The notes below the pieces were generated by a model. The model saw only the letters and a list, made by a program, of their open reading frames with translations. It was not told the origin of the DNA and did no database searches. The position numbers and the translations under genes were made by a program. From Variovorax paradoxus (GTDB lineage Bacteria; Pseudomonadota; Gammaproteobacteria; Burkholderiales; Burkholderiaceae_C): 64,000 bases of DNA. Shown piece by piece: positions 7,087 through 39,708 of this stretch. Numbering within the stretch: the first letter of the stretch is position 1; each line of letters opens with the position of its first letter. The stretch spans positions 2,540,001 through 2,604,000 of the forward strand of contig NZ_CP102931.1 in assembly GCF_024734665.1 (NCBI RefSeq), written 5' to 3'.

Positions 7087-8331
7087 TCAGCGGTAGACAG
7101 GGAAGCGGCTCGTCAGCGCGTGAACCTTGGCGCGCACGGCATCGATGTTCGCCGCGTCGCGCGGGTTCTCGAGCACGTCGGCGATCAGGTTCGCGGTGAT
7201 GCGGGCCTCTTCGTCCTTGAAGCCGCGGGTGGTCATGGCGGGGGTGCCGATGCGCACGCCGCTGGTGACCATCGGCTTTTCCGGGTCGTTGGGGATCGCG
7301 TTCTTGTTGATCGTCATGTGGGCGCTGCCCAGCACGGCTTCGGCTTCCTTGCCGGTGATGCCCTTGGCGCGCAGGTCGACCAGCATCACGTGGCTTTCGG
7401 TGCGTCCGCTCACGATGCGCAGGCCGCGCTGGGTGAGGGTGTCGGCCACGATCTGGGCGTTCTTGACCACCTGTTGCTGGTAAGCCTTGAACTCGGGCGC
7501 CATGGCTTCCTTGAACGCGACGGCCTTGGCGGCGATCACGTGCATCAGCGGGCCGCCTTGCAGGCCGGGGAAGATGGCGCTGTTGATGGCTTTTTCGTGC
7601 TGCGACTTCATCAGGATGATGCCGCCGCGCGGGCCGCGCAGGCTCTTGTGGGTGGTGGAGGTGACCACGTCTGCGTGCGGCACCGGGTTGGGGTACACGC
7701 CTGCGGCCACGAGGCCGGCGTAGTGGGCGATGTCGACCATGAAGATCGCGCCGACGTCCTTGGCCACCTTGGCGAAGCGCTCGAAATCGATGCGCAGCGA
7801 ATAGGCCGAGGCGCCCGCGATGATGAGCTTGGGCATGTGCTCGTGCGCCTTGCGTTCCATCGCGTCGTAGTCGATGGCTTCGTTGGCGTCCAGGCCGTAG
7901 CTCACGACGTTGAACCACTTGCCGCTCATGTTCAGTGGCATGCCATGGGTCAGGTGGCCGCCTTCGGCCAGGCTCATGCCCATGATGGTGTCGCCGGGCT
8001 TCAGGAAGGCGAGCATCACGGCCTCGTTGGCCGAGGCGCCGCAATGCGGCTGCACGTTGGCGGCGTCGGCGCCGAAGATCTGCTTGACGCGGTCGATGGC
8101 CAGCTGCTCGGCCACGTCGACGTGCTCGCAGCCGCCGTAGTAGCGCTTGCCCGGGTAGCCTTCGGCGTACTTGTTGGTGAGCTGAGAGCCTTGGGCGGCC
8201 ATGACGGCTGGCGAGGCGTAGTTCTCGCTGGCGATCAGCTCGATGTGATGTTCCTGGCGCGCGTTTTCGGCTTGAATCGCAGCCCAGATTTCGGGATCGG
8301 TCTGTTCGACCAGGATGTTGCGTTGGTACAT
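7087..8331 (-). CDS. glyA: Serine hydroxymethyltransferase
   Basis: Cytoplasmic PLP enzyme of 414 residues interconverting serine plus tetrahydrofolate and glycine plus 5,10-methylene-THF, the main source of one-carbon units. The PLP-binding lysine is Lys229 in [14 protein letters not shown]. Also visible are [14 protein letters not shown] (about residues 30-43), the [11 protein letters not shown] region and [10 protein letters not shown]. Length and sequence are complete. I place the start at [10 protein letters not shown] because the 30 codons in frame upstream do not resemble the family. nrdR follows 24 bases downstream. Confidence 0.97.
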
Positions 8332-26055: not shown

Positions 26056-26148
26056 GGAACTGTGACCGAGTGGCCGAAGGTGCTCCCCTGCTAAGGGAGT
26101 ATGGGGTGTAGAGCCTCATCGAGGGTTCGAATCCCTCCGGTTCCGCCA
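26056..26148 (+). tRNA. serX: tRNA-Ser (anticodon GCU)
   Basis: A 93-base class II tRNA. The acceptor stem GGAACTG pairs with CGGTTCC (one G-T pair), followed by discriminator G and an encoded CCA (26146-26148). The D arm is GACCGAGTGGCCGAAGGT. The anticodon stem-loop CTCCCCTGCTAAGGGAG has GCT in the loop. A long variable arm typical of tRNA-Ser follows. The T arm is GAGGGTTCGAATCCCTC. It reads AGC/AGU codons. Confidence 0.96.
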
Positions 26149-26152
26149 AGAC

Positions 26153-26191
26153 AAAAGCCCCTGTAGTTGTGAGACTACAGGGGCTTTTTTT
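26153..26191. terminator. Strong bidirectional terminator after tRNA-Ser
   Basis: AAAAGCCCCTGTAGT (26153-26167), six-base loop, ACTACAGGGGCTTTT with a run of seven T on the plus strand. The four A at the left arm give a shorter U-run in the other direction, so it can also stop the minus-strand transporter operon ending at 26226. Confidence 0.9.
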
Positions 26192-26225
26192 CTGTCCGAG
26201 CCCATGGCAGAAAAGAACTTTGGCA

Positions 26226-27557
26226 CTAAGCCTTGCTGCGCAGGGCCGAACCTCCGACCAGGAGCGCCACCAGGCTGGCGGCCGCAGCGAACATCACGTA
26301 CCACGCGGGGGCGAGCGGGCTCCCGGTCCGGGCGATCAGCGCCGTGGCAATGAATGGCGCGAAGCCACCGAAGATCGTGACAGCAAAGTTGTACGCAATC
26401 GAAAGCCCCGTGGACCTCACCTGCGGTGGATAGAGCTCGGCCATGGCGGCGGGAGCGGGGCCGGTGAACCCGGCGATCAGCACGGCAAATACGACCAGCA
26501 CAGCCGTCAAGGTCGCGGCACTCGGAAAGGCCGTGAGCAGCCAGAGCGCCGGATAGGCAAGCACGAGGATCGCCGCAGCGAACCCGATCAACAGCGGCCG
26601 GCGTCCGATCCGGTCCGAGAGCCCGCCGAAAACCGGCGCCAGCACAACCAGCACCAGGAGCCCGGCGCCATTCGCCCACAGCGATGCACTCTGCGGCAGC
26701 TTCAGCGTGCGCACGGCATACGTCGGCATGTAGACCAGAAAGAAATACGTGCACACCGTCCACACGATGGTGACGCCGAACCCGGCAATGATTTCCTTGC
26801 GGTACGAGCCCATCACCTGCCTCAGTGGGGACGCCTGTTGGTTGGCTGCCTTGGCCCGCTCGAAGGTTGCGGGCTCCCGCGTCTTGGCTCGGATGTACCA
26901 GCCCACCGGGCCGATGACCAGGCCGAACAGGAACGGGATTCGCCAGCCCCACGCTTCCAGCTGCTGGGGACTCAGTATTCCCGTGAGCGTCGCGCCAAAG
27001 AGCGAGCCGAGCAGAAGCGCGCCGGCCTGGCTCGCCTGCTGCCAGCTTGCGAAATAGCCCTTGCGATCTTTCGGCGCGTGCTCGACGAGAAACGCTGTTG
27101 CCCCTCCAACCTCGCCGCCGGCGGAGAAGCCCTGGATCAGCCTCGCCAGCACGATCCACGCGGGCGCCCAGAGGCCTGCATCGGCGTACGTCGGCGCCAG
27201 GCCGATCATTGCTGTTCCAAGCGCCATCAGCAGGATCGTTGTCGACAGTGCGGCTTTGCGCCCGTGCGTGTCGCCGAGCGCGCCAAGAATCACCGCACCG
27301 ATCGGCCGCATCACAAAGCCCACGCCGAAGGTCGCTACGGTCAGCAACAGCGAAGAGGTTTCATCGCCGGTGGGGAAGAACAGCTTGGAAATCGTGATCG
27401 CGAAGAAGCCGTAGACAGCAAAGTCGAACCACTCGAGCGTGTTGCCGATGACCGCTGCGGGAATCATCCGGCGCGTTGCATCGTGGGGCTCGTTGGAGGC
27501 GAGCGCGCCGAAGGCGCTGGTGGCATCAGCCACCGTGGCTGCGTCGAGATTTTTCAT
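26226..27557 (-). CDS. MFS transporter, metabolite:proton symporter (MHS) family
   Basis: Membrane protein of 443 residues with about 12 hydrophobic helices. N-terminal GNTLEWFDFAVYGFFA and the GALGDTHGRKAAL loop are typical of the MHS family (relatives of ProP, KgtP and ShiA), as is FSAGGEVGGA in helix 4. It would import an organic anion or zwitterion with protons. It is the last gene of an operon with an ArgE-like deacetylase and a leucine-dehydrogenase-like enzyme, and overlaps the deacetylase by 4 bases. This suggests import of an N-acylated or branched-chain amino acid; the substrate is inference. Confidence 0.88.
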   Translation of the reverse strand: MKNLDAATVADATSAFGALASNEPHDATRRMIPAAVIGNTLEWFDFAVYGFFAITISKLFFPTGDETSSLLLTVATFGVGFVMRPIGAVILGALGDTHGRKAALSTTILLMALGTAMIGLAPTYADAGLWAPAWIVLARLIQGFSAGGEVGGATAFLVEHAPKDRKGYFASWQQASQAGALLLGSLFGATLTGILSPQQLEAWGWRIPFLFGLVIGPVGWYIRAKTREPATFERAKAANQQASPLRQVMGSYRKEIIAGFGVTIVWTVCTYFFLVYMPTYAVRTLKLPQSASLWANGAGLLVLVVLAPVFGGLSDRIGRRPLLIGFAAAILVLAYPALWLLTAFPSAATLTAVLVVFAVLIAGFTGPAPAAMAELYPPQVRSTGLSIAYNFAVTIFGGFAPFIATALIARTGSPLAPAWYVMFAAAASLVALLVGGSALRSKA

Positions 27558-28693
27558 GCTGTCTTGAGAGAAGGGGCGGGTGAGATATCGGCTTCGGCGA
27601 GCGCCCATGCACCGGCCGATTGCATGAAGCGATCGGCCGCCTGCAGCTGGGCTGCGGAGATCCATTCGTCCGGCTGGTGCGCCTGCGCGATGGAGCCGGG
27701 GCCGCATACCACCGTTGAAATGCCGACCTGCTGGAAGAAGCCCGCCTCGGTGCCGAATGGCAGGTCTGCCTCCGGCCAGAGCGCGCCGAGTTCGCGCGCG
27801 ACCGAGACCGCAGCGTCGTTGTCGCGTGCCGACAGCGCCGGCACGCCCGCGACCTGCATGGCCTCGACCGTGACGCCAGCGGGAAGGTCCATCAGCGCAT
27901 CCCGGACCGTATCGCGCACGAGTTCCGCAGCCGCTTCATCTTGCGGACGAAACTCCCACAAGACCTCGCAGCACCCCGGCACGATGTTGATGGCGGTGCC
28001 TCCGTCGATCCGGCCGATGTTGATCGTGGCCTCGCCACCCCGGCTGGCAAAGCTGCGCCGCAGTCCGGCCAGGCAGGTGACCAGGTAGGCGGCAGGCTCG
28101 ATCGCGCTGGCGCCGAGTGACGGGTCGCTCGAATGTGCGGGAAGCCCGCTGAAGAGCGCCCTGTGCCCGAAGAAGCCGCGGTGCCTGACGCCGATCCGCA
28201 TCTCGGTCGGCTCGCCGATGATGGCCAGCGCGGGGGCTTCCACTTGCGTCTTCAAGCGGTTCACGAGCTCCGGAACGCCGAGGCACCCGATCTCTTCGTC
28301 ATAAGAGAAAGCAAGGTGGATCGGACGGCCCAGCGGACGCCGCTGCCAGGCAGGCACGGCCGACAGGCAGGCGGCGATGAAGCCCTTCATGTCTGCCGCG
28401 CCGCGGCCGTGGAAGCGGCCGTCGCGTTCGACCAGCGTGAAGGGATTGGCGCTCCAGTTCTGGTCGGTCACGGGCACGACGTCGCTGTGCCCGGAGAGCA
28501 CCATGCCGCCCGCCATGTCGGGGCCGATGCTGGCGAGCAGGTTCGCCTTCCGCTTGTCCTCGCTGTGCACGAGATGCACTTTCACCCGGTGTCCCGCGAG
28601 GTAGTCGGCGATCCAGTGGATCAGGTCGAGGTTCGAGCGATGCGAGGTCGTGTCGAATGCCACCAGGGTTCTGAGGATCTCGATGGTGGTCAT
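27554..28693 (-). CDS. ArgE/DapE-family deacylase (acetylornithine deacetylase-like)
   Basis: Zinc-dependent M20-family amidohydrolase of 379 residues. The metal-site motifs are GMVLSGHSDVVPV, GRGAADMKGF, SYDEEIGCLG (catalytic Glu-Glu), IGEPTEMR and the C-terminal GPGSIAQAHQPDEW. Sequence pattern and length match the short ArgE group that removes N-acyl groups from amino acids. Location between a leucine-dehydrogenase-like gene and a transporter gene, and not with arginine genes, suggests a catabolic N-acyl amino acid substrate instead of arginine synthesis. Both ends overlap neighbours by 4 bases. Confidence 0.85.
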   Translation of the reverse strand: MTTIEILRTLVAFDTTSHRSNLDLIHWIADYLAGHRVKVHLVHSEDKRKANLLASIGPDMAGGMVLSGHSDVVPVTDQNWSANPFTLVERDGRFHGRGAADMKGFIAACLSAVPAWQRRPLGRPIHLAFSYDEEIGCLGVPELVNRLKTQVEAPALAIIGEPTEMRIGVRHRGFFGHRALFSGLPAHSSDPSLGASAIEPAAYLVTCLAGLRRSFASRGGEATINIGRIDGGTAINIVPGCCEVLWEFRPQDEAAAELVRDTVRDALMDLPAGVTVEAMQVAGVPALSARDNDAAVSVARELGALWPEADLPFGTEAGFFQQVGISTVVCGPGSIAQAHQPDEWISAAQLQAADRFMQSAGAWALAEADISPAPSLKTA

Positions 28694-29793
28694 GCGACAC
28701 GCTCGGCCAGGGCATTGCTGGCGCTGTTGTTGCCGTTGTTCATGCTTCTGCCGGAGTTGCCGCGGCCCAGCCGCTCCTGCACGAGCTGCATGGCTGCGGA
28801 TTGGGTCGGTGTACCGGTGCGTTCAGCGAGTTCGAAGATCCGGTGCAGGGTGGCGCCGATGGCTTTCACCTGCGAATCCACCTTTGCGGCATTGAATCCC
28901 TCGTGCTCCGACGCCACACGGATCAGGCCGCCCGCGTTGATCACGAAGTCCGGCGCGTACAGGATTTCCTTGTCGCGCAGCTGCCTGCCATGTTCGTCGC
29001 CGGCCAGCTGGTTGTTGGCGCCGCCGGCGATCACCCGGAACTTCATCTGCGGCAGGGTTCGATCGTTCACGACGGCACCCATCGCGCAAGGAGAGAACAC
29101 GTCGGCCTGAACGGCGTAGATCGCGTCGGGTTCGACCGCCTGCGCATCGAACTCGGCGCAGGCCTTGCGCGCGAGCGCCGCATCGACGTCGGATACCGTG
29201 AGGCGCGCCCCCGCGGCGGCGAGCAACCGGCACAGGTTCCAGCCGACGTTGCCCAGGCCCTGCACTGCCACTGACAGCCCACGCAGGTCACGATCCAGCC
29301 GATGCGCGACGCTCGCCACGATGCCGTGATAGACGCCCAATGCCGTGGTCGGCGAAGGATCTCCGGTGCCGCCCAGTTCTTCCGGCAAGCCGACCACGTG
29401 CCGGGTGTTTTGTCGTACCCAGGCGAAGTCGGCGACAGTGGTACCAACGTCTTCGGCGGTGATGTAGCGGCCCCCCAGGCGGTTGACCGCCACGCCCATC
29501 GCGCGCAGCAGTTCGGGCGTCTTGCTCTTGCGCGGGTCGCCGAGGATCACCGACTTCCCGCCGCCCAGGCCGAGTCCCGCAGCCGCGGCCTTGAAAGTCA
29601 TTCCACGCGACAGGCGAAGCACATCGCGCAGGGCGGAAGCTTCGTCGGCGTAGGGATACATGCGGCATCCGCCCAGGGCCGGCCCGAGCCGGGTGCTGTG
29701 AATGGCGATGATGGCCCGGAGCCCGACCCGATCATCGGATACGAAGACGACCTGTTCGTGGTCCGCAAAAGACTCGGTAGAGAAGACGGTCAT
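28690..29793 (-). CDS. Leucine dehydrogenase-like Glu/Leu/Phe/Val dehydrogenase
   Basis: NAD-dependent amino acid dehydrogenase of 367 residues. The N-terminal dimerisation/substrate domain contains GPALGGCRMYPY, the conserved MTFKAAAAGLGLGGGKSV (Lys68 and catalytic Lys80) and GDPR. The Rossmann half has VAVQGLGNVG (about residues 175-184). Length and motifs fit leucine/phenylalanine dehydrogenases, not hexameric glutamate dehydrogenases. It deaminates a branched-chain or aromatic amino acid to the 2-oxo acid. A low-complexity Asn/Ser-rich tail follows residue 345. It is first in the operon with the deacylase and MHS transporter, overlapping the deacylase by 4 bases. Confidence 0.87.
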   Translation of the reverse strand: MTVFSTESFADHEQVVFVSDDRVGLRAIIAIHSTRLGPALGGCRMYPYADEASALRDVLRLSRGMTFKAAAAGLGLGGGKSVILGDPRKSKTPELLRAMGVAVNRLGGRYITAEDVGTTVADFAWVRQNTRHVVGLPEELGGTGDPSPTTALGVYHGIVASVAHRLDRDLRGLSVAVQGLGNVGWNLCRLLAAAGARLTVSDVDAALARKACAEFDAQAVEPDAIYAVQADVFSPCAMGAVVNDRTLPQMKFRVIAGGANNQLAGDEHGRQLRDKEILYAPDFVINAGGLIRVASEHEGFNAAKVDSQVKAIGATLHRIFELAERTGTPTQSAAMQLVQERLGRGNSGRSMNNGNNSASNALAERVA

Positions 29794-30073
29794 TTATTTA
29801 TCTGTTTTTTGAGTTTCGATGTGAACGAATGCGGACGCGGCCTGCTCCAGGGCCGCTGCCGCATCAATGCCTGGGGGCGCAGGCTAGAAACAGCAGCAAG
29901 CGATGTAGATATAGCGATAGCTCTACTGGAGGAACGTCGAGCACCGCATCGGTGAGCGACAGAACTTCAGGGCTTGCTTGGCGGAATGATTGCGTCATGT
30001 GATGGCCTCGCTGTTGGGCACAGCATGACATCGGGAGACGCGGTGATATTGGTGAAAATTTGGCGCCGCAAGA

Positions 30074-30751
30074 TCAGGCGCGGGACGGTTGCAATGCGGG
30101 CGCCGTCGTAATCAATCCCATCTCCCTGAACAGCCTTTGGTACTCGTTCAGTGCGAGATCCTGCAGCGATTGGTGATGCTCGGGATTGATCGTTATCTCA
30201 TCGATTGAAAAATCGAATTCCGCCGAACTCATCCAATCTTCATATCGAAGTTTGATTGGCGATGCCGGATGCTCCAGGTCGGGAGCTTCAATCGTTGAAT
30301 GAATATCCGGTATTCCCGGTTCGCCTTGAGGAATCAGGCAAGTCCAGACAAGGCCATGGCGTTCAACAGCCGGAAACATCGTGATCCTGAAGCATTCCAC
30401 CGTCTTGAGTGCAAGCTTCTCGGGGGCCTTGCGGCATTGCCCATCGGACCCGTAGCGCAGGCCGTGATAGGCGCAGACCAGCTCGTTGTCTTCGATGCGC
30501 CCCGTGCTCAATGGCAGCCCGCGATGCGGGCACATGTCTCGGCCAATGCGAATGCCATCGGGCATGCGATAGATGGCCAACCTGAGGTTAAGCAAGATCA
30601 TCTGCCTGGGCTTTGCCGCCACCTCGTCGACACGTGAGACCGGAAACCACTGCCTGGCCAGAACCGGCCAGTCTTGCTCGGAGAACGTGCAGTTCGGAGG
30701 CAAAAAGCCCTCGGGCAGAGGGCGCGAGGGGGGCGGTTCAACGGGCGGCAT
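30074..30751 (-). CDS. Stand-alone Rieske [2Fe-2S] protein
   Basis: Protein of 225 residues. Residues about 33-130 are a Rieske domain of the ring-hydroxylating-oxygenase type: Cys74-Pro-His76 (CPHRGLPLS) and Cys93-x2-His96 (CAYHGLRY) bind the cluster. The chain stops where the mononuclear-iron catalytic domain of a full oxygenase would begin. No 2-His-1-carboxylate motif is visible in the remaining hundred residues. It may be an electron carrier for the oxidase in the same operon or a degraded oxygenase. Last gene of the six-gene operon, 12 bases after the AlaX gene. No reductase is nearby. Confidence 0.8.
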   Translation of the reverse strand: MPPVEPPPSRPLPEGFLPPNCTFSEQDWPVLARQWFPVSRVDEVAAKPRQMILLNLRLAIYRMPDGIRIGRDMCPHRGLPLSTGRIEDNELVCAYHGLRYGSDGQCRKAPEKLALKTVECFRITMFPAVERHGLVWTCLIPQGEPGIPDIHSTIEAPDLEHPASPIKLRYEDWMSSAEFDFSIDEITINPEHHQSLQDLALNEYQRLFREMGLITTAPALQPSRA

Positions 30752-30763
30752 GGCTCGCTCGTC

Positions 30764-31489
30764 TTATTTGACCAAGCCGATCCGGATCCTCCGGTTGTGC
30801 TGTCCCTTGTTCTCGATCTTCAGGATGCGCAACGGTGCCGATTGCGAAGTCTTCGAAAGATGCGTTCCGCCGCAGGCCTGCCGGTCGAGTCCCACGATCT
30901 CGATGATGCGCGTGGTGCCGTCGTCCTGGCTCGGTGGTGCTACAGAACGGCTGCGGAGTACCCCGGGTTCGCGCGAGAGTCCGGCCGCGTCGAGGTAAAC
31001 CGCATTCACCTGCAGCCCGTCGGAGATGAGGGTGTTGAGTTCGGGCTCGAGCATGCGCAGTTCGTTGTTGTCGGCCGCGGGCAAGTCGAAGTCGATGCGG
31101 GCCGTGCCATCGGCTGCCATTTGCACGCCCGTTACCAGCGAGCCCTCGAAGCGCTGATAGACGAGCGCATTGAGGATGTGCAGGCCCGTGTGCAATTGGC
31201 TCATCATGAAGCGGAAATCCTGGTCCACTTTGGCGACGACCTTGTCGCCGGGAATGGAGGCGGTTTCAGCTTCGTCGAAGACGTGCCACGCATTGCGACC
31301 CTCCGTTTCGACCCGGCTGATCTTGATCTCGCCACCATTCCATTGCAGCGTGCCGCGATCCGCCAATTGCCCACCGCCGCCCGGATAGAAGAAAGACCGG
31401 TCGAGAAGAACCGCATTCGGGCGGCGCGCTATGACATTGGCTTCGAATTGAAAGCAATCAGGTTCGATATGGCAGAGATAAGGAGACAT
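30764..31489 (-). CDS. AlaX-type alanyl-tRNA editing protein
   Basis: Protein of 241 residues homologous to the editing domain of alanyl-tRNA synthetase. The four zinc ligands are present: HTGLH (His100, His104) and CGGTH (Cys206, His210). The N-terminal signature FYPGGGGQLADRG is at residues 34-46. Free-standing AlaX proteins hydrolyse mischarged tRNA-Ala (Ser- or Gly-tRNA). Its setting in a putative biosynthetic operon beside an EamA exporter suggests it clears tRNA mischarged with the pathway's own amino-acid-like product; that is inference. The ATG at 31489 follows a GAGGA ribosome-binding site. Confidence 0.9.
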   Translation of the reverse strand: MSPYLCHIEPDCFQFEANVIARRPNAVLLDRSFFYPGGGGQLADRGTLQWNGGEIKISRVETEGRNAWHVFDEAETASIPGDKVVAKVDQDFRFMMSQLHTGLHILNALVYQRFEGSLVTGVQMAADGTARIDFDLPAADNNELRMLEPELNTLISDGLQVNAVYLDAAGLSREPGVLRSRSVAPPSQDDGTTRIIEIVGLDRQACGGTHLSKTSQSAPLRILKIENKGQHNRRIRIGLVK

Positions 31490-31513
31490 GAATTCCTCGG
31501 TTGACGGAAACGC

Positions 31514-32428
31514 TTAAGAAAATCGTCGTGCGGTAACGATGCCGATCAGAATGATCACGGCCCCCGCAAACTCGGTGGCGCTCAGATATTCATGGAACAG
31601 ATAGGCGCCGAGCACGGTTGCAATGACGGGCTGTATCAGCAGGGTGATTGAAGAAAGCGCGGCCGGAAGCTTGGCCAGCGCATAGGCAATGAGGCCCTGG
31701 CCTCCGACGTGCGAGACGACTGCCAGCGCCAGCAGCATCAGCATTCCGTTGATCGTGTGCGGAACAAGCGACTCGCCGCGCAGGAGCGTGATGGGCAGGA
31801 GAATGATCAACGTACCGACGCTGCTCCATGCCATGACGGTCATCGTCCGATAGTTCGAGCGCACAAGGCTGACCGCCAGGAGATACGAGCCGTAAAAAAC
31901 TGCGGTCAAAAGTCCTAACAGATTTCCCGCCATATAGGTCGAACCGAAATCCAGCCGATGCCCGATCAGGATGAATGCGCCGGCCAGCGCAAACAGCATC
32001 CCGAACAGGAAGCCGGGCTTGAACTTTTTACCCAGAAACAGGTTGGACCCAAGCACCACGAAGATCGGAGCAAGGTTGGCAAGAAGATTGGAATTGGCCA
32101 GCGTGGTCAGCGTCATCGACCAGTGATAAAGCGCCAGATTCCCGGAAAAAATGAAGCCGACAAGAATGAGCTTGACCGGAATGGCCGGCATTTTTTCAGA
32201 GGGCGAGCCGGTCGCGCGCACTGGTTCGGCTCTTGCCGCAAGCATGTCGAGCAGGAAGAAAATCGGAATTGCCAACGCAACCCGATAGACCGCGCTCGCG
32301 GTCGGAGGCAATTCGCTGTGGCGAAGAAAAACGCCACCCAGCGCCAACGCCGCCGCGCCAAGCAGAAGCGCAACGAAAGAAAAGAAGTTTTTGCTTTTTG
32401 AAGCAACAGGTAGGGCAATAGTCGTCAT
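31514..32428 (-). CDS. EamA/DMT-family exporter
   Basis: Inner-membrane protein of 304 residues with about ten hydrophobic helices in two EamA halves. The first half ends near ANLAPIFVVLGSNLFLGKKF and the second near LLIQPVIATVLGAYLFHEYL, both typical EamA repeat ends (P followed by a paired last helix). DMT transporters of this type often export amino acids and related metabolites. In this operon it is the likely exporter of the cluster product. A 10-bp hairpin lies 11-39 bases upstream of its start. The Shine-Dalgarno is weak (GGAATGAAAT). Confidence 0.88.
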   Translation of the reverse strand: MTTIALPVASKSKNFFSFVALLLGAAALALGGVFLRHSELPPTASAVYRVALAIPIFFLLDMLAARAEPVRATGSPSEKMPAIPVKLILVGFIFSGNLALYHWSMTLTTLANSNLLANLAPIFVVLGSNLFLGKKFKPGFLFGMLFALAGAFILIGHRLDFGSTYMAGNLLGLLTAVFYGSYLLAVSLVRSNYRTMTVMAWSSVGTLIILLPITLLRGESLVPHTINGMLMLLALAVVSHVGGQGLIAYALAKLPAALSSITLLIQPVIATVLGAYLFHEYLSATEFAGAVIILIGIVTARRFS

Positions 32429-32438
32429 ATTTCATTCC

Positions 32439-32467
32439 GGCACGACCGGGTCTCCATCGGTCGTGCC
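32439..32467 (-). other. Perfect hairpin between the DUF1330 and EamA genes
   Basis: GGCACGACCG (32439-32448) pairs with CGGTCGTGCC (32458-32467) across a nine-base loop. On the minus-strand transcript it lies inside the operon, just before the EamA start, with no U-run after it. It is therefore more likely a processing or translational element than a terminator. Confidence 0.6.
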
Positions 32468-32516
32468 AGCCAGTTTGTTTTTTAAAGCATCAAAAGGGCA
32501 GGGCGAAGAGCTATCG

Positions 32517-32810
32517 CTATTCAAATCCCTCGATCACCATGAGCTGCATATCGGCTGCAGCATCCTTTCGCAATCCCTTCGCAAAGGTGTATTCCGGCGA
32601 TTCGTAGAATTTTCTCGCCGCATCGGCAGATTTGAATTCAACAAGAACCACGCGCCGATCATCCAGAGCGCCTTCCAAATGCATGCGCTCGCCTCCCCGC
32701 GTCAGAAACCTGCCTCCAAACTTTTCTATGATCCCGGGCGTGAGTTGCTTGTATTGGTTGTATTGATCCGGGTCCACAATGGACATCCGGCCAATCAGAT
32801 AGGCGACCAT
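32517..32810 (-). CDS. DUF1330 protein
   Basis: Small protein of 97 residues matching DUF1330 in length and layout: MVAYLIGRMSIVDPDQYNQYK at the start, a central GGRFLTRGGE turn, then VLVEFKSADAARKFYESPEY. The fold is a dimeric ferredoxin-like alpha/beta barrel related to antibiotic-biosynthesis monooxygenases and NIPSNAP; no general function is established. It sits between the oxidase and exporter genes and may act on the pathway intermediate. I start at ATG 32810; an upstream in-frame ATG at 32894 would overlap the preceding gene by 59 bases. Confidence 0.85.
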   Translation of the reverse strand: MVAYLIGRMSIVDPDQYNQYKQLTPGIIEKFGGRFLTRGGERMHLEGALDDRRVVLVEFKSADAARKFYESPEYTFAKGLRKDAAADMQLMVIEGFE

Positions 32811-32835
32811 ATGACAACCAGGCTTGGGGCCGCCG

Positions 32836-33654
32836 TTATACGTAAGCCACTTTTCTCTGCTCTGCGGCGACACCGGATTGCAGCAATGCCGCATCCAGAA
32901 CGTCCCAGAGGCCGGTCAGCGAATCGAGAAAATCGTCTGCGCCTTCGATGACCAAGTGGGCGTACTCGGTTTTCAGGGCCAGCTCGACCGCGGTGCGGGC
33001 GTTTTGCTCGTGGTGCTGCTCGGCGCCGACTTCGCCCCAGTGCTCCAGCAGGTAGTGCATTTCAGGCACCTCGAGATCGGCGTTGTAGATGCCGCTGTCC
33101 ACCAGGCAATACTTTTCGCCCGGAATCAATTGCTGGTTGGAGATCATTTCCAGCGCCAGCGTGGTGCCGAGATTCCGGTAGGTGTTCTCGATGTCCGTCA
33201 TCTTGCGGTGATCGAAGACGCCAATGGCCTTTCGGACTTGCGCGGTCAACCCGGTGTCCATGTCGTAGCCGGGCAGGGAGCCGAGCAACTGGTTGGAGAA
33301 GTCCTTGAGCTTCGCTTCGACCTTCTCCTGGTTGTAGAGGTCTGCAAACACGGGCTTTTCGGCCGACTGGTTGACGATGTATCCCGCCATCGTCGCCAGC
33401 TCGGGGCCGTGGCCCGATTCGCTCTCGACGATTTCTTCCAGCAACTCGCTCTGCCTGTGCAGCCCATGCTCCTTGAGCGCATCCGGAAAACTCCATCCGG
33501 GACGCGTGGACGCGCAGAAGCTCTGGATCTGGTGGAAAAGGGCTCCCACAACAGGAGGCTCTGGTTCGATCTTTACCCAATTCTTGAAAATCGGGTGGGA
33601 ATAGCAACGATGACTTTTAACTCTCTCAACCAGATCGGAAATGGTAACGCTCAT
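32836..33654 (-). CDS. Heme-oxygenase-like (putative di-iron) oxidase
   Basis: All-helical protein of 272 residues resembling the iron-containing redox enzyme group with the heme-oxygenase-like fold (relatives include UndA, BesC, SznF, FlcD, PolF and CADD). The N-terminal SHPIFKNW is typical. Candidate iron ligands are Glu79 and His82 (ESESGHG), Glu169 (TLALEM), and a C-terminal helix with His205, Glu208, Glu212 and His215 (LLEHWGEVGAEQHH). The canonical H-x3-D-x2-H here reads E-x3-E-x2-H, a variation. Such enzymes desaturate, cleave, hydroxylate or cyclise amino acids and acids. A good AGGAG site precedes ATG 33654. It lies 47 bases after the methyltransferase-like gene. Confidence 0.75.
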   Translation of the reverse strand: MSVTISDLVERVKSHRCYSHPIFKNWVKIEPEPPVVGALFHQIQSFCASTRPGWSFPDALKEHGLHRQSELLEEIVESESGHGPELATMAGYIVNQSAEKPVFADLYNQEKVEAKLKDFSNQLLGSLPGYDMDTGLTAQVRKAIGVFDHRKMTDIENTYRNLGTTLALEMISNQQLIPGEKYCLVDSGIYNADLEVPEMHYLLEHWGEVGAEQHHEQNARTAVELALKTEYAHLVIEGADDFLDSLTGLWDVLDAALLQSGVAAEQRKVAYV

Positions 33655-33701
33655 TTCGTGCTCCTAATTACAGTTGGTTAAAAAATGCCGTGGGAACTCA
33701 G

Positions 33702-34694
33702 TTATTTACTTGCCATCAACATTCGCCCTCCAGGGTGATCAAGTATTTCGACCCGCACATTGGAAAAGCCCGCGCGGAACAATTTTTCAGTCCATTCGTC
33801 TTCACTGAGGAGTTTTCTGGACATGAAATGATTGTGCAGATGATTGAATGCCGCGGCGAACGGCTTTTCCCAGCCGGATTGAGCAACAGGAATTGCATCG
33901 ACGATGATCAGCGTGCCCTTGATTGCATTGGCACAGCAGGCGCGCAGCAATGCGTCGAGCGTTTCTTCTTCGGCAGGAAGAAGATCGTGCATGACAAATC
34001 CTGCGTGGATGATGTCCGCGTCCCTGATGAGAGATGCATCTTCCGTGAGGATCTGGATGGGGGCAGTCACGAACTGGAGCCTGTCGCTCATTCCCGCTTC
34101 ACTGGCTGCGCGAACGGCCTGTTCGGTGGCCGACGCGCTCAGATCAATTCCAACGCCTTTTGAGCCCGGAATTTTCCTGAGCATGCGGATCAGGAACCCT
34201 CCGGAGCCTGATCCAAGATCTACGATTTTCTTTGGTGCCATCGCGACGATGGCGTTTTCCGGCTGCGGATAGAAGGATTTTTCGCCCATCCATTTCGATG
34301 TGCGGGCAACCAGGCCGCCGCTGCGCGGGTATTTGAGTTGCGCCTCTTCGTTGTTTTCCGAAAATTCTTTCGCGTTGTTGATCAACGGGGCACAAGCGCG
34401 GAGCGCCCACGAGAGGTACCCGACTTCATTGATCAGTTCGTCGAAATTGCTGCCAGCCTTGTAGGTTGCTGGTGCTTTTTCATTCAATACCTCGATGATT
34501 CCGGCCTTGCTCAGGGAGTCGAGGTAGGCGGAAATCACCGATTCCTTGATTCCGCAGGATCGGGATGCCGTTGCAGCGTCCACGATCGGCGATTTCTGGA
34601 GAAATTCAATGATTCCGTACTCCGCGCCTATTTCCAGCAGGATTGCGGAGCCTGCGAGGGAGGAACCAGTAATGCCGCGATCAACATTTTGCAT
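33702..34694 (-). CDS. Class I SAM-dependent methyltransferase-like enzyme
   Basis: Protein of 330 residues. An N-terminal helical/winged-helix-like dimerisation region (about residues 10-90) precedes a Rossmann methyltransferase domain with motif I VDLGSGSGG (158-166) and the acidic residue Asp184 (GVGIDLSAS). The layout is that of small-molecule O-/N-methyltransferases. A segment SGGLVARTSKWMGEKSFYP (125-143) just before motif I is a probable substrate lid. First gene of the operon and therefore likely the committing or tailoring enzyme. Some proteins of this shape (azetidine-2-carboxylate synthases such as AzeJ/VioH) cyclise SAM and do not methylate, so the reaction is open. Visibly AT-richer than flanking genes. 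Confidence 0.82.
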   Translation of the reverse strand: MQNVDRGITGSSLAGSAILLEIGAEYGIIEFLQKSPIVDAATASRSCGIKESVISAYLDSLSKAGIIEVLNEKAPATYKAGSNFDELINEVGYLSWALRACAPLINNAKEFSENNEEAQLKYPRSGGLVARTSKWMGEKSFYPQPENAIVAMAPKKIVDLGSGSGGFLIRMLRKIPGSKGVGIDLSASATEQAVRAASEAGMSDRLQFVTAPIQILTEDASLIRDADIIHAGFVMHDLLPAEEETLDALLRACCANAIKGTLIIVDAIPVAQSGWEKPFAAAFNHLHNHFMSRKLLSEDEWTEKLFRAGFSNVRVEILDHPGGRMLMASK

Positions 34695-34923
34695 GGGTCA
34701 CCTGTGGGTTAAACACTATTGAAAACGAACTGATTACTTTGCAGTGGTCGAAACCATTTAGTTGCACGATAGTCAGCGCGGAGAAACCCGTATTGGTAAA
34801 AATTGCGGCCGGAAGCAATCGCGCCAAAAAGACGAATCCGAATTCCGCGCGAGCCGAGCGGAAACAAGAAGCGGAAGAAGGAAGACCCTCAGCGCATGGC
34901 TCGAGGGCCGGGGAGGCGGTCTC
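34695..34923. other. 229-bp gap upstream of the six-gene operon
   Basis: AT-rich near 34700-34800, where the minus-strand promoter of the operon must lie. An AGGTG ribosome-binding site precedes ATG 34694. I could not define -35/-10 boxes with confidence, and no palindromic operator stood out. Confidence 0.4.
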
Positions 34924-35763
34924 TCAGCAGGTCCGTGCGCGGACGTACTGGAGAGGCGTCATGCCGAAGGTGCGCTTGAAATGCCTGGTGAGAGCGCTCT
35001 GGTCGTAAAAGCCGCTCGCAACGGCGGCTTCGATCAGCGGCCGGCCGGCAGTGAGGTGACTGATGGCGGCCCTGAGCCGCAACTGCGTGAGGTACGTGTG
35101 CGGCGTCAGTCCGATCGTGCGGTTGAATGCGCCGATCAGCTGAAAGGGCGTCAGGTCGGCGGCCGCCGCCATCTGCTCGAGCGTCAATCGCTCTGCGAAG
35201 GAGTCGCGCAGCAACTCCAGCACTGGCGCGAGCACGTTGGCATCTGCCGGCACCGGGAGCACGCGTTGCCCTGGCTGTGCGTGGCTCTGGAAGAGTGTTC
35301 CGAAGCTATGGACGAACAGTTCCTGCTGCCGCAGAGGGTCCCATTGATCGCTGTTTCCGTCGTAGGCGCGATGAAGCTCCAGAAAGCTGCCGATGAGCTC
35401 CTGGTTGCAATAGATGTTCGATCCGAAGTACCGGGTCTGATCGATGCCCAGTGTCGTCATCAGATGCCTGATGCCCGGCTCGGCCAGATAGAGAGCCCTG
35501 TACCGCCAGCGGGCACTGCCGCCCATGCGGCCCGAGTGTGGTTCGGCCGGGTTGAACACGAGGAGCGCCTGCTGATTGGCAATGCCCGTGCGGCCGCGGC
35601 TCTTGAACTCCGCGCCTCCAAGCTCGGTGACCGCAATCACGAAGGAATGGTGCACATGGGGTGCGTATTCATGTGTCGTGAAGTCCGCATGGAGCATGTC
35701 CATGCCCGGCATGCCAGGCACATGCCAGTAGCGCGATGTATTCAGAGGGTCCAGCTTGGCCAA
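34924..35763 (-). CDS. AraC-family transcriptional regulator
   Basis: Protein of 279 residues. Residues about 20-150 are a cupin-like AraC ligand-binding domain (HEYAPHVHHSFVIAVTELGG, VFNPAEPHSGR), and residues about 180-279 carry two HTH motifs ending FGMTPLQYVRARTC. I choose a TTG start at 35763 because a GGAGG sequence lies five bases before it and it gives the sensible N-terminus AKLDPLNTSRYW. An ATG 44 codons upstream has no such site. It is tandem with the downstream six-gene operon (229 bases) and divergent from the acyl-CoA dehydrogenase gene. It could control either. Confidence 0.88.
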   Translation of the reverse strand: MAKLDPLNTSRYWHVPGMPGMDMLHADFTTHEYAPHVHHSFVIAVTELGGAEFKSRGRTGIANQQALLVFNPAEPHSGRMGGSARWRYRALYLAEPGIRHLMTTLGIDQTRYFGSNIYCNQELIGSFLELHRAYDGNSDQWDPLRQQELFVHSFGTLFQSHAQPGQRVLPVPADANVLAPVLELLRDSFAERLTLEQMAAAADLTPFQLIGAFNRTIGLTPHTYLTQLRLRAAISHLTAGRPLIEAAVASGFYDQSALTRHFKRTFGMTPLQYVRARTC

Positions 35764-36042
35764 CGAAGCCTCCGTTTGGATCAGCGGTTGTAACGCTTTC
35801 AGCGTCCAACCGGTTGCATGGCACCTGAATGGTGAGCAAGGCTGTCTATTCCAGTGACTACGGCGCGATCTGGGGAGCGGGCGGGGCGGCGCCAAGTCGC
35901 TGTACCTTGAGCACGCAAAGACTGTGCCATTTTGCGGTCCTGGTGTGTCGCGTGCCCGGCCCGGGAAAGAACGGATTCAGGTTCACGAATCTCGAAGAAT
36001 GATTCACTATGCCTGCAGCGCGGCGAACTCCTGGAGACCTTC

Positions 36043-37755
36043 ATGAACATGCCCCTCGAAAGTACGGCACTGGCGTTTCAGTTTCCCCTGGCCGATGGCG
36101 TCGAGACGCACAGGGTATTCAACCAGGCCAGTGCTTGCACCGGCCACAACGCATTCACAGGCGATGTGGCTCTACGAGAACTCGTGGCGCGCCACGCGTC
36201 CTGGAGCATTCCCGACGCAACGGCGGTCGGCGCATTGGCGGGCAACGAAGAGGTGCAGGACCTCGCACGATTGGCCAACGAACACAGCCCGCAGCTGCGC
36301 ACGCATGATCGGTTCGGCAATCGCCTGGACTGGGTCGAGTTCCATCCTGCATGGCATCAACTCATGGCCTTGGGGTTCGCGCATGGCGTACCGAGCCTTG
36401 CGTGGACAACCAATGAGCCCTCGGGCCACCTTGCGCGTGCGGTGCTGAGCTACCTGTGGAACCAGGTCGAGAACGGCACCGGATGCCCCACCGGCATGGC
36501 CTACGCTGCCTGCGCCGGTTTTGCGGGGCGGTCGGAGTTTGCAATGTGGCGGGAGAAGACACTCTCCGGTCGCTACGACCCACGCCGCCTGCCGCTCCCG
36601 CAGAAAACGGGCGCCGTCATCGGCTACGCCATGACCGAGAAGCAGGGCGGCTCCGACCTGCGCCAGACGCAGACCACGGCCACTTTCGTCGGAACCGAGA
36701 ACGGCGCCCGCATCTACAACGTGACCGGCCACAAGTGGTTCTTTTCGGTCCCTACCTCCGACGGCTTCTACACACTGGCTCAAACCAATTCGGGCGTGAG
36801 CTGCCTCTTCGTTCCGCGCTTCCTGCCGGACGGCAGTGCCAATCGTGTTGCCGTGCAGCGCCTGAAAGACAAGTGCGGAAACCGCTCCAACGCATCGAGC
36901 GAGGTCGAGTTCAACAAGACCTGGGCGATGCTGGTCGGCGAAGAGGGGCGCGGCATTCGCGAGATCCTGTCGCATGCACACCTGACCCGCCTCGACTTCG
37001 CAGTGGGTTCTGCAGGCCTGATGCGCCAGGCGCTCACGCTGGCGATCAACCACGCATCGACACGCGACGGCTTCGGTCGCCGGATGGCCGACCTGCCCAT
37101 GCAGACGAATGTGCTGGCGGACTTGGCGCTGGAAAGCGAAGCGGCCATGCTGTCGGCGATGCGCGTCGCACGCGCAACCGACAGCATGGAATCGAATGAA
37201 CGCGAGCGGCTTCTTGCCCGCGTGGCAACGCCCGTGGTCAAGTACTGGAACTGCCAGCGTGCGACGTACTTCGTCTACGAGGCATTGCAGGTTCACGGCG
37301 GCAACGGCTTCATCATGGAGAACCCCATCGCGCGGCTGTATCGCGAGGCGCCGCTCAATTCGATCTGGGAAGGCACGACGAACATGATGTGCATGGACGT
37401 GGTTCGCGCGCTCGGCCGCGAGAAGGGTTCGCTCGAAGTCTTTCTCGATGAAGTCTCCCAGCCGGGAGTTGCCAACGCGGCGTATGCGAAATTCATCGCC
37501 GGTTTGCGCGACGATCTTTCTGCGGGTGCCGTCGATGAGGGCAATTCGCGCGCCATCGTGACGCGCATGGCCCTTGCGCTTCAGGCGAGCGAGATGCTCA
37601 GGCACAGCGATGGCGCGGTGGCGCAGCGCTTCGTCGAGTCGCGCCTGGGCGGTCGGCACGCCGGTGTGATGGGGACTCTGGTCGCGGGGGCAGATCTGCG
37701 CGGAATCGTTGCTCGCGCCGATGTGACTGAGGCGGCGCAATCGGCATCTATCTGA
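36043..37755 (+). CDS. AidB-like acyl-CoA dehydrogenase
   Basis: Protein of 570 residues of the acyl-CoA dehydrogenase superfamily, closest in length and motifs to AidB/isovaleryl-CoA dehydrogenase-like flavoproteins. Visible are the FAD-binding GYAMTEKQGGSDLRQTQT (about residues 192-209), GHKWFFSVPTSD and the C-terminal REAPLNSIWEGTTNMMCMDV, which contains the acidic residue of the active site. AidB proteins protect against alkylation damage in E. coli; others act in fatty-acid or amino-acid catabolism. GGAG lies a few bases before ATG 36043. Divergent from the AraC gene with 279 bases between. Confidence 0.87.
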   Translation: MNMPLESTALAFQFPLADGVETHRVFNQASACTGHNAFTGDVALRELVARHASWSIPDATAVGALAGNEEVQDLARLANEHSPQLRTHDRFGNRLDWVEFHPAWHQLMALGFAHGVPSLAWTTNEPSGHLARAVLSYLWNQVENGTGCPTGMAYAACAGFAGRSEFAMWREKTLSGRYDPRRLPLPQKTGAVIGYAMTEKQGGSDLRQTQTTATFVGTENGARIYNVTGHKWFFSVPTSDGFYTLAQTNSGVSCLFVPRFLPDGSANRVAVQRLKDKCGNRSNASSEVEFNKTWAMLVGEEGRGIREILSHAHLTRLDFAVGSAGLMRQALTLAINHASTRDGFGRRMADLPMQTNVLADLALESEAAMLSAMRVARATDSMESNERERLLARVATPVVKYWNCQRATYFVYEALQVHGGNGFIMENPIARLYREAPLNSIWEGTTNMMCMDVVRALGREKGSLEVFLDEVSQPGVANAAYAKFIAGLRDDLSAGAVDEGNSRAIVTRMALALQASEMLRHSDGAVAQRFVESRLGGRHAGVMGTLVAGADLRGIVARADVTEAAQSASI

Positions 37756-37764
37756 GGGCTAGTC

Positions 37765-39708
37765 TCAAGCCGACTGGCGTTCCCGCTGCATCGGCAGCCA
37801 CAACACGAACCGCGTTCCCGTCGGTTTCGATTCCCACTGGACCACGCCCTTGATCGCCTGCGCTCGCCGCCGCTGGTTCTGCAGGCCTCGGCCCCCCGCG
37901 GACTGATTGCCCATCACCTTCTGGACGTCGAAGCCCTGGCCGTTGTCCTCGATCGTCACCTGCACGCCCGCGCCCTCCAGCGAGGTGCCCACGCGTATCT
38001 CCGTCGCGCGCGTGTGCCTCAGGATGTTCGAGATGCTTTCCTGCACGATGCGCAGGATGTGCAGCGCGCTCGATGGGTCGAGCCAGTCCAGCGCGGGCAG
38101 CTCCTGCACTTCCCACCGCAGCGAAACACCGGTGCCTTCAAGCCGCGGTTCCAGCCGGTAGCGCAGCGTGGCCAGCAGCAGCAGCAGGTCGGCCTCGATG
38201 GGCTCCAGCGAGTCGAGCGTGAGCTTCAGGTCGTCCAGGCAGCTCTTGAGAATCTGCGAGACCTTGTCGTCGCTCATGCCGCCGCCTTCGACCGAGCGGA
38301 TGGCGCTGATCAGCGAAGAGCCGAGGCCGTCGTGCATGTCCTGCATCAGGCGCTGGCGTTCGTCGCTGATGGTCTGCAGGCGCTCGACCTCGCGCAGCCG
38401 CCGGTGGCTGAGCTCGAGTTCGGCTTCGCGCTTCTGCAGGCGCTGCGCAAGGCTCGCATTGAGCTGCTCGACCTCGCCTATGGCGTGCATGTACCGGCGG
38501 TACATCAGCGCGCCGAACACGCTGAAGGTGACGGCGTTGGTGTACGCCCCCAGGTACCAGCCTTCGGGGCTGATGAAGTTGTTCTGCAGCAGCCAGTCGG
38601 TCATGCCCAGCAACACGCAGATGCCGATGCCGACCGCGACCAGTCGCCCTTCGGTGGAGCGGCGCCATGCGCTGACGCTACCCACCAGGCAGACCAGGGT
38701 GCCCATCAGCGCCGCGACAGCGTAGATCAGCGGCGTTACCTGCGGCGTGTTCTGCACGATGTTCAAGCCGGGCAGGGTGACGAGGCCGATGGTGGTGGTC
38801 GCCACGACCACACCGACGGTCAGCCACTTGAGCTGCAGGCCGTGCAACTGGCGCAGGAAGAAGTGCACCACCATCACCAGCCAAAAGAGCGAGTTGACTG
38901 TCAGCCACGCGAACCAGTCATTGGCGACGGGCAGGCTCACGTAGAAGTGAAGTCCCCGCATGAAGGAAGTGGCCGCGAGGTTGAAGAACAGCAGGTAGCC
39001 CGTTTCGTCGCGGCGCCTGAACCACACGAACAGGGCGAACACGCCCACGGCCATGAATGCTGCGCCGAGCATCGCGGGCAGCTCCTGCTGCAGCCACTGG
39101 CGCATGCCGTAGCGGCCCCTGAGCGCGTCGATGGGGCCGATCCACAGCGACGACAACGCCACCTGGGCATTGCGGGTGTGCTCCAGGCGCAGGAGGATCT
39201 CGCTGGGCGGCTTGCTGTCGACGCTGTTGTCCAGCTGGACCCACAGCGGGGTGCGGGTGCTGTTCCACAGCGGGCCCGACTGCTGCGCGCGGTGGACCAG
39301 CTGGCCGTCGGCATAGACCGCGATGGTGCCATCGGTCTTGATCCGGATGCCGTACAACGCCAGCGGCCCGGCGTCGGGCGGCAGGCCGCGCGTGGACAGC
39401 CGGATCCAGGTGGTGCGCGTCGTCCTGGTGGAGGCGGTCTCCGCCTGGCGCAGCAGTGCGATGGGAAGGGCCAGGGGCAGTTCGACCCGCTTCCAGGTGT
39501 CCGGCAGGGCGCCGCTGTCCTGCTTCAACGGCGGAGTGCTGAATCCCGAGGCTTCGTCGACCTGCCAGTCGGCGCGCGTCAGGTGCAGCAGCGAGTCGGA
39601 CTGCTGCAGGCCGGCTGTCCCGCCCAGGAAGGCCCCGATGGCGCCCAGCAGTGCCATCGACAGGACGAGCACCACGTTGGCGAAGAAGGGTGCGGGACGG
39701 TAGTTCAA
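37765..39708 (-). CDS. Orphan 7TM-type sensor histidine kinase (HPK7/NarX-like)
   Basis: Membrane histidine kinase of 647 residues. Helix near 10-30, periplasmic sensor region to about residue 215 (resembling 7TMR-DISM extracellular modules), then about seven membrane helices to about 405 and a coiled-coil linker (EQLNASLAQRLQKREAELE). HisKA_3 contains the phosphoacceptor His459 in MQDMHDGLGSS. The HATPase domain ends with DNGQGFD and GGRGLQNQRRRA. No response regulator adjoins it: both neighbours are unrelated, so its partner must be elsewhere. It converges on the acyl-CoA dehydrogenase gene (9 bases). Confidence 0.9.
   Translation of the reverse strand: MNYRPAPFFANVVLVLSMALLGAIGAFLGGTAGLQQSDSLLHLTRADWQVDEASGFSTPPLKQDSGALPDTWKRVELPLALPIALLRQAETASTRTTRTTWIRLSTRGLPPDAGPLALYGIRIKTDGTIAVYADGQLVHRAQQSGPLWNSTRTPLWVQLDNSVDSKPPSEILLRLEHTRNAQVALSSLWIGPIDALRGRYGMRQWLQQELPAMLGAAFMAVGVFALFVWFRRRDETGYLLFFNLAATSFMRGLHFYVSLPVANDWFAWLTVNSLFWLVMVVHFFLRQLHGLQLKWLTVGVVVATTTIGLVTLPGLNIVQNTPQVTPLIYAVAALMGTLVCLVGSVSAWRRSTEGRLVAVGIGICVLLGMTDWLLQNNFISPEGWYLGAYTNAVTFSVFGALMYRRYMHAIGEVEQLNASLAQRLQKREAELELSHRRLREVERLQTISDERQRLMQDMHDGLGSSLISAIRSVEGGGMSDDKVSQILKSCLDDLKLTLDSLEPIEADLLLLLATLRYRLEPRLEGTGVSLRWEVQELPALDWLDPSSALHILRIVQESISNILRHTRATEIRVGTSLEGAGVQVTIEDNGQGFDVQKVMGNQSAGGRGLQNQRRRAQAIKGVVQWESKPTGTRFVLWLPMQRERQSA

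Follow-up and report, generated by a model that had tools for sequence, protein, structure and literature searches.

The 64,000-nucleotide stretch of Variovorax paradoxus DNA analysed here (NCBI RefSeq assembly GCF_024734665.1, contig NZ_CP102931.1, positions 2,540,001 to 2,604,000; hereafter the window) carries a putative amino-acid biosynthetic cluster, at the heart of which six consecutive minus-strand open reading frames lie at 30074-34694. The gaps between them are 47, 25, 88, 24 and 12 bases when the DUF1330 gene starts at 32810, exactly as in a preliminary description made from the letters alone. Pfam scans confirm five of the identities given there (Rieske protein, AlaRS editing domains of AlaX, EamA, DUF1330 and methyltransferase); for the sixth, a heme-oxygenase-like oxidase, there is no Pfam match but a supportive predicted fold. 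The block is also AT-richer than its neighbours, with a GC content of 0.565 against a mean of 0.6625 (standard deviation 0.018, minimum 0.633) over 502 overlapping 4621-bp segments of the 64 kb, none of which touches the block. A six-gene unit was, however, too small: the true cluster spans about 26226-37755 and about 11 genes, given the linkage of the added genes across the genus. Its genes are listed below, with counts over 11 distinct Variovorax loci (the window, L005-L012, L020 and L073).

26226..27557, minus strand: MHS-type MFS metabolite/H+ symporter; TIGR00883 at 412 bits, under the cut-off of 443; overlaps the ArgE-like gene by 4 bp; 6 of 11 Variovorax loci
27554..28693, minus strand: ArgE-like M20 deacylase; TIGR01892 above cut-off; 11 of 11 Variovorax loci
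28690..29793, minus strand: Glu/Leu/Phe/Val-type amino-acid dehydrogenase, ScyB-like; PF02812/PF00208; NF035922 at 380 bits, under the cut-off of 600
30074..30751, minus strand: stand-alone Rieske protein, possible electron donor; PF00355; CxH-x16-CxxH motif at residue 74
30764..31489, minus strand: AlaX-type trans-editing protein; PF01411/PF07973; GGGGQ, HTGLH and CGGTH motifs; NF040865 at 179.4 bits
31514..32428, minus strand: EamA/DMT exporter; PF00892; TIGR00950 at 59 bits, below cut-off
32517..32810, minus strand: DUF1330 protein, CmaL-like; PF07045; 55% identity to CmaL of a P. syringae plasmid
32836..33654, minus strand: heme-oxygenase-like dimetal oxidase (HDO), from predicted fold and structure comparison; no Pfam match
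33702..34694, minus strand: SgvM-like alpha-keto acid C-methyltransferase (MT); best PDB sequence match 8ftr, E 8.6e-70
34924..35895, minus strand, start uncertain: AraC-family regulator; PF12833, PF02311
35932..37755, plus strand (divergent), start uncertain: AidB-like acyl-CoA-dehydrogenase family flavoprotein; NF008594 at 464 bits, below the cut-off of 545; 11 of 11 Variovorax loci

MT, HDO, DUF1330, EamA, AlaX, Rieske, AraC, ArgE-like and acyl-CoA-dehydrogenase-like matches were found in all 11 Variovorax loci. Gene searches covered 41 genomes of the genus, four of which were outside the HDO search, and HDO was present in 4 of 37, the window's own genome included. Only these four carry the acyl-CoA-dehydrogenase-like gene at E<=1e-200 (the G011 match has an internal stop) and the ArgE-like gene at an identity of at least 87%, five others having a 63-68% homologue. 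The dehydrogenase is intact in three of the four and a remnant in one, and the other 37 genomes reach at most 45% identity. Two of the genomes, G009 and G016, seem identical with the records of loci L011 and L005, respectively. In L073, the G011 dehydrogenase is cut down to a short remnant at 7437-7811, between the Rieske and ArgE-like genes. The dehydrogenase, ArgE-like and MFS genes of the window overlap each other by 4 bases; since these three genes downstream of Rieske are not AT-rich (GC 0.655-0.675) and a 280-base gap precedes them, the cluster may have been assembled from two sources.

The closest solved relative of MT is PDB entry 8ftr, titled only "Methyltransferase", and further relatives include MppJ and 2-ketoarginine methyltransferase, both counted among the keto-acid C-methyltransferases (PMC10502145). 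The same source describes SgvM as a C-methyltransferase that depends on a metal, bound by H244 and H296, and acts on branched alpha-keto acids (PMC10502145). The excerpted text of that paper does not name the entry, and we equate 8ftr with SgvM on the grounds that histidines occupy its positions 244 and 296, the sites of the SgvM metal ligands. The window MT is alignable with it over residues 11-329, H236 and H287 fall on the two metal histidines, and both are invariant in 16 of 16 aligned family members; unlike SgvM, MT has no peptide synthetase among its cluster genes. By kinship, MT would beta-methylate an alpha-keto acid. At E<=1e-25, it was found in 1 of 321 genomes of the class, namely its own. 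An AzeJ-type azetidine synthase was also considered as an identity for MT and rejected, the best PDB match being SgvM-like and two of three AzeJ motifs missing. The AzeJ/VioH signature consists of FY (17-18), PFNxxGN and RxxYYxxC (PMC11794875); MT has FY at 141 only, and the AzeJ/VioH entries named in the excerpted text of that paper are not among the best 60 of its 93 PDB matches.

The predicted structure of HDO (pLDDT, the predicted local distance difference test, 92) has the seven-helix heme-oxygenase fold and matches diiron HDO enzymes in structure comparison, at about 9-14% identity in structural alignments. PDB sequence searches with the protein and with its family profile returned nothing credible and no PDB HDO. 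Seven residues (E79, H82, E169, H205, E208, E212 and H215) are conserved in 27 of 27 family members and are candidates for the three His and three carboxylate metal ligands expected of an HDO; the spacing of the conserved histidines and carboxylates resembles that of MboA, judged by eye. The best precedent is PolF, an HDO that acts on Ile and Val through beta-hydrogen abstraction (PMC12614342). PolF, an azetidine/desaturase enzyme on L-Ile and L-Val, shares the HDO fold and an amino-acid context with the window enzyme, at the low identity given above. The mangotoxin HDO system MboA/MboB is likewise a small non-modular amino-acid/peptide cluster with a possible redox partner encoded alongside, but no ATP-grasp ligases were seen in the window, and the partner would be the Rieske protein rather than an MboB-type flavin/Fe2S2 reductase. 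At E<=1e-30, HDO occurs in 1 of 399 genomes of the order, again its own. No match was found at E<=1e-20 among 72,556 plasmids, and therefore the unit does not belong to the known plasmid-borne cassettes.

The preliminary description allowed that relatives of the oxidase and methyltransferase might sit mainly in unrelated housekeeping contexts. For the oxidase this is answered in part: in the Pfam-scanned minority of neighbours, HDO relatives lie beside amino-acid genes, namely a leucine-type dehydrogenase, a chlorinating enzyme and a carrier-protein ligase, and also beside other oxygenases. In a Streptomyces clade (L025, L027, L028, L030, L031, L032), a leucine-type dehydrogenase adjoins HDO in 6/6, and simple gene calls place a PaaA/PaaC-like gene ahead of HDO in 5/6 and a nitroreductase-type gene after it in 3/6. 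Chromobacterium relatives (L033-L035) are preceded by 4HBT thioesterase-like and PaaA-like genes. Planctomycetota relatives (L018, L036, L024, L026) lie near one protein cluster, the one member checked (L018) being a GNAT acetyltransferase, and in Streptomyces curacoi (L017) a CmaB-like chlorinating-type enzyme, 50% identical to plasmid CmaB, lies about 4 kb from HDO.

The MT-HDO pair, CmaL and the coronamic acid (cma) cassette combine in twos. MT-HDO is accompanied by a CmaL-like protein in Variovorax, Noviherbaspirillum and a planctomycete, and in Pseudomonas (L021/L023) and Legionellales (L029), where there is no close CmaL, by a cma-like cassette; cma and CmaL occur together in the two plasmids tested, where MT-HDO was not found. 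In MT-bearing Variovorax, Noviherbaspirillum and planctomycete loci the cluster DUF1330 shares 53-59% identity with the CmaL annotated on plasmid pB13-200A, and no CmaL match was found in other HDO loci (E<=1e-3). The window DUF1330 is the closest CmaL relative in its genome (55% vs 40% for the next best), and the best matches in the genomes of L021, L023 and L029 are 36%, 30% and none. CmaL is reportedly needed for L-allo-isoleucine, going by the title of a 2013 study by Worley et al. The gene order in L021/L023 (domains checked in L023) is GntR, MT, HDO, CmaE-like hydrolase, adenylation-carrier protein, chlorinating enzyme (TIGR01762, 520 bits in L023), VOC protein, thioesterase, AlaX and LysE. 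These genes are 64-91% identical to cma genes of the P. tremae plasmid NZ_CP066271 (LysE compared for L023 only), in whose cma operon no MT or HDO was found. The L021 and L023 ligases are 80% and 66% identical to plasmid CmaA and, read by eye, have identical residues at what we take to be the CmaA specificity positions; cmaE, cmaT and cmaU are likewise names that we presume to apply. Legionellales L029 has a more distant cma version (32-58%) with a carrier protein, two aminotransferases (one of branched-chain type) and a TauE-type transporter. The cma cluster of Pseudomonas syringae thus resembles the window in its CmaL-like DUF1330, amino-acid exporter, AlaX within the operon and isoleucine-type chemistry. 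The window, however, has an SgvM-like MT, HDO, Rieske protein and dehydrogenase, and neither the CmaA ligase, CmaB halogenase, CmaC nor a carrier protein was found among its 11 cluster proteins in Pfam and/or NCBIfam scans.

The co-occurrence of MT, HDO and AlaX, expected by the preliminary description, is seen in 11 loci of Variovorax, 2 of Noviherbaspirillum, 2 of Pseudomonas and 1 of Legionellales. Outside Variovorax, 25 HDO loci were counted (L039, whose contig ends inside HDO, was left out, and contig ends truncate some others); AlaX occurs in 5/6 with MT vs 0/19 without it, the latter searched with three AlaX queries at E<=1e-3 (Fisher 1.1e-4, a test that ignores kinship, as L015/L037 and L021/L023 are pairs, each from one genus). 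The distance from AlaX to HDO is about 5 kb in Pseudomonas and L029. The window protein carries the AlaRS editing-domain motifs HxxxH and CxxxH (HTGLH, CGGTH), and its score for the AlaXM equivalog NF040865 lies below the curated cut-off of 300; the cma-type AlaX of L021, L023 and L029 lacks HxxxH, and the AlaX of L078 lacks CxxxH in the frame read. A quick unrooted tree separates the window and Noviherbaspirillum AlaX, the housekeeping-type Variovorax AlaX and the cma-type AlaX from one another, and the window genome holds its cluster AlaX as an additional copy from a clade of its own. To judge from such relationships, AlaX is recruited from distant groups, with differing exporters (EamA, LysE).

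The plasmid collection held 21 matches to cma-type AlaX, nine of them in Pseudomonas, where AlaX is the very next gene after the one at the thioesterase position, itself downstream of cmaC (9/9). A LysE exporter is next in 5/9, lies beyond insertion sequences in one (L087) and falls outside the viewed stretch in three. The link to cma is not exclusive, as the one annotated non-Pseudomonas record inspected, from Legionella adelaidensis, has a cma-type AlaX outside cma; the other such matches are a Burkholderia record lacking annotation and, outside the inspected set, six from Legionella and four from Vibrio. Among the literature matches listed, none joined AlaX or alanyl-tRNA to coronatine or HDO enzymes, and the AlaX gene of the cma operon went unmentioned in the coronatine papers listed; a search joining heme oxygenase-like with coronamic acid found none. 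Alanyl-tRNA synthetase reportedly accepts another unusual amino acid, azetidine-2-carboxylic acid, in vitro (PMC11794875), an error of a sort that AlaX could correct. A further precedent is CtdA, a stand-alone editor that bacteria encode next to genes dealing with a toxic amino acid (PMC10018355). This canavanyl-tRNA deacylase is comparable to AlaX in that setting, but it belongs to the B3/4 family, acts on a different tRNA and lies beside degradation rather than biosynthesis genes.

AlaX relatives also occur apart from the biosynthetic genes. Six HDO-free Variovorax genomes (L075-L080) have AraC, AlaX, EamA and ArgE in a row, ArgE being seen in the five whose contig continues. Identities to the window are 63-72% for AraC, 52-55% for AlaX and 63-68% for ArgE, and the cassette EamA proteins are 86-92% identical to the L076 copy. 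Window-type AlaX was found on four Agrobacterium plasmids. In the two pAt plasmids examined (L074, L097) AlaX, a DMT transporter, dehydrogenase, argE and MFS stand in a row with no HDO or MT nearby, and gene order differs, AlaX preceding the transporter in Agrobacterium and EamA coming first in the window. On these conjugative plasmids, TetR and AraC regulators lie beside the row. The AraC-AlaX-EamA(-ArgE) set looks like a stand-alone resistance or utilisation cassette, as a protective set without the biosynthetic part would be expected to, albeit with an exporter that differs from that of the window.

Building on the observed genes, families, conserved likely metal ligands and linkage, we propose that this small cluster makes, in free form, a non-proteinogenic amino acid of the isoleucine type, branched at the beta-carbon, and also protects its host from it, a reading to which we would give roughly even chances. 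The kinship of MT with SgvM, the fold and invariant residues of HDO, the CmaL-like DUF1330, the pairwise combinations of MT-HDO, CmaL and cma, the linkage of AlaX to MT-HDO and to cma, its varied origins and exporters, and the cluster-specific leucine-type dehydrogenase all speak for it. MT would methylate the beta-carbon of an alpha-keto acid, and the DUF1330 protein, by analogy with CmaL, would help to set the beta-stereocentre. The leucine-type dehydrogenase, or a housekeeping aminotransferase, would turn the keto acid into the amino acid, which HDO would oxidise with O2 and two irons, most likely attacking the tertiary beta C-H first, in the manner of PolF. A dehydro or ring compound may result, with the Rieske protein perhaps as electron donor. 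EamA would export the product, AlaX would remove it from mischarged tRNA, probably tRNA-Ala, and AraC would sense it. The preliminary description had the operon making, modifying, exporting and tolerating a toxic amino-acid analogue; the biosynthetic part gains a keto-acid C-methyltransferase, a CmaL-like DUF1330 and a cluster-specific dehydrogenase, and the toxicity, product and AlaX specificity stay at the level of conjecture. As far as gene content can tell, comparative genomics largely upholds that outline, with better-defined chemistry and a larger cluster.

The distinctive part of this small non-modular amino-acid cluster is its tRNA editing, probably a form of immunity. More tentatively, and with somewhat less than even confidence, we suggest that AlaX is devoted to protecting producers from their own products, a family of isoleucine-type amino acids made by HDO or Cma enzymes, with producers carrying AlaX and an exporter in the biosynthetic operon and same-genus neighbours carrying AraC-AlaX-EamA-ArgE alone as resistance. 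If so, bacteria that fight with amino-acid mimics would have drawn tRNA proofreading into their arms race, and the existence of cassettes lacking biosynthetic genes suggests a role for the product in encounters between bacteria. The proposed role would also account for the AlaX gene within coronamic acid operons, assign a defined class of substrates to an HDO family that is divergent in sequence and as yet uncharacterised, and open producer immunity through tRNA editing to direct testing. The cluster would be a compact source of new amino-acid chemistry that needs no peptide synthetase.

Several observations weigh against the proposed biosynthetic reading. HDO occurs without MT and AlaX in 19/25 non-Variovorax loci, and therefore its reaction is not specific to this pathway; planctomycete L014 has MT-HDO-DUF1330 but no AlaX was found there. 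On the Pseudomonas plasmids, AlaX is intact and annotated in one of nine copies (P. tremae, L086) and an unannotated match in two pieces in eight (L087, L090-L096), so that it seems dispensable in these eight coronatine-type plasmids. Two of the three engineered pocket residues of SgvM are changed in MT (F329 and T331 are H320 and G322), so its substrate is probably other than alpha-ketoleucine. Across the 11 Variovorax loci the dehydrogenase matches over most of its length in eight, is a remnant in one and is absent from two, and thus lost or decayed in 3/11. The Rieske protein is the least conserved (59-74% identity between the window and other Variovorax), with no relative found in the Noviherbaspirillum loci. 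The window and cassette EamA show no detectable similarity, and therefore the idea of one shared module rests on AraC, AlaX and ArgE. The position of MT and HDO ahead of cma genes with an L-allo-isoleucine-ligase-like ligase goes unexplained. Finally, we infer all substrates and products, the HDO reaction, toxicity and the editing specificity of AlaX.

It is also conceivable, if unlikely, that the cluster serves to use or detoxify a foreign amino-acid analogue, for example from plants or microbes. The MFS protein would import an N-acyl amino acid, the ArgE-like enzyme would free it, the dehydrogenase and acyl-CoA-dehydrogenase-like protein would degrade it, and AlaX and EamA would protect the cell, as CtdA does in canavanine users. 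Such a role would suit the AlaX-DMT-dehydrogenase-argE-MFS rows of the pAt plasmids, with no HDO/MT nearby, and the AraC-AlaX-EamA(-ArgE) sets of the six HDO-free Variovorax genomes, and CtdA itself sets a precedent (PMC10018355). A keto-acid C-methyltransferase that consumes S-adenosylmethionine and a CmaL homologue nonetheless point to biosynthesis, as does the location of MT-HDO in Pseudomonas and Legionellales, upstream of genes that make compounds of the coronamic-acid type.

Two further accounts place less on AlaX, and we consider both improbable. MT-HDO-DUF1330 may be just another way of making L-allo-isoleucine, which is a known building block, with AlaX having no dedicated link to it. 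The likeness of the L021/L023 ligases to CmaA, presumed specificity positions included, and the want of a close CmaL in those genomes would fit, although the need for a diiron oxidase and an AlaX restricted to MT-bearing loci would then be unexplained. The least probable account has AlaX as a general quality-control factor of translation that entered the operon by accident. AlaX-type domains are indeed widespread, with 40/41 Variovorax genomes matching the AlaX query somewhere (AlaRS included), and cma-type AlaX occurs outside cma, as in Legionella adelaidensis. Against chance stand its status as an extra, distinct-clade copy, its retention in 11/11 Variovorax and 5/6 other MT-HDO loci and its apparent recruitment from distant groups.

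Across the cluster and its margins, no sigma-70-like promoter was found in 26150-38000. At the left edge lie a tRNA-Ser(gct) gene and a terminator-like hairpin, at 26056-26188 of the window, adjoining an open reading frame that reads as aspartokinase. The counterpart of this tRNA-Ser(gct)/aspartokinase edge lies about 51, 217 and 61 kb from HDO in G009, G011 and G016, respectively.

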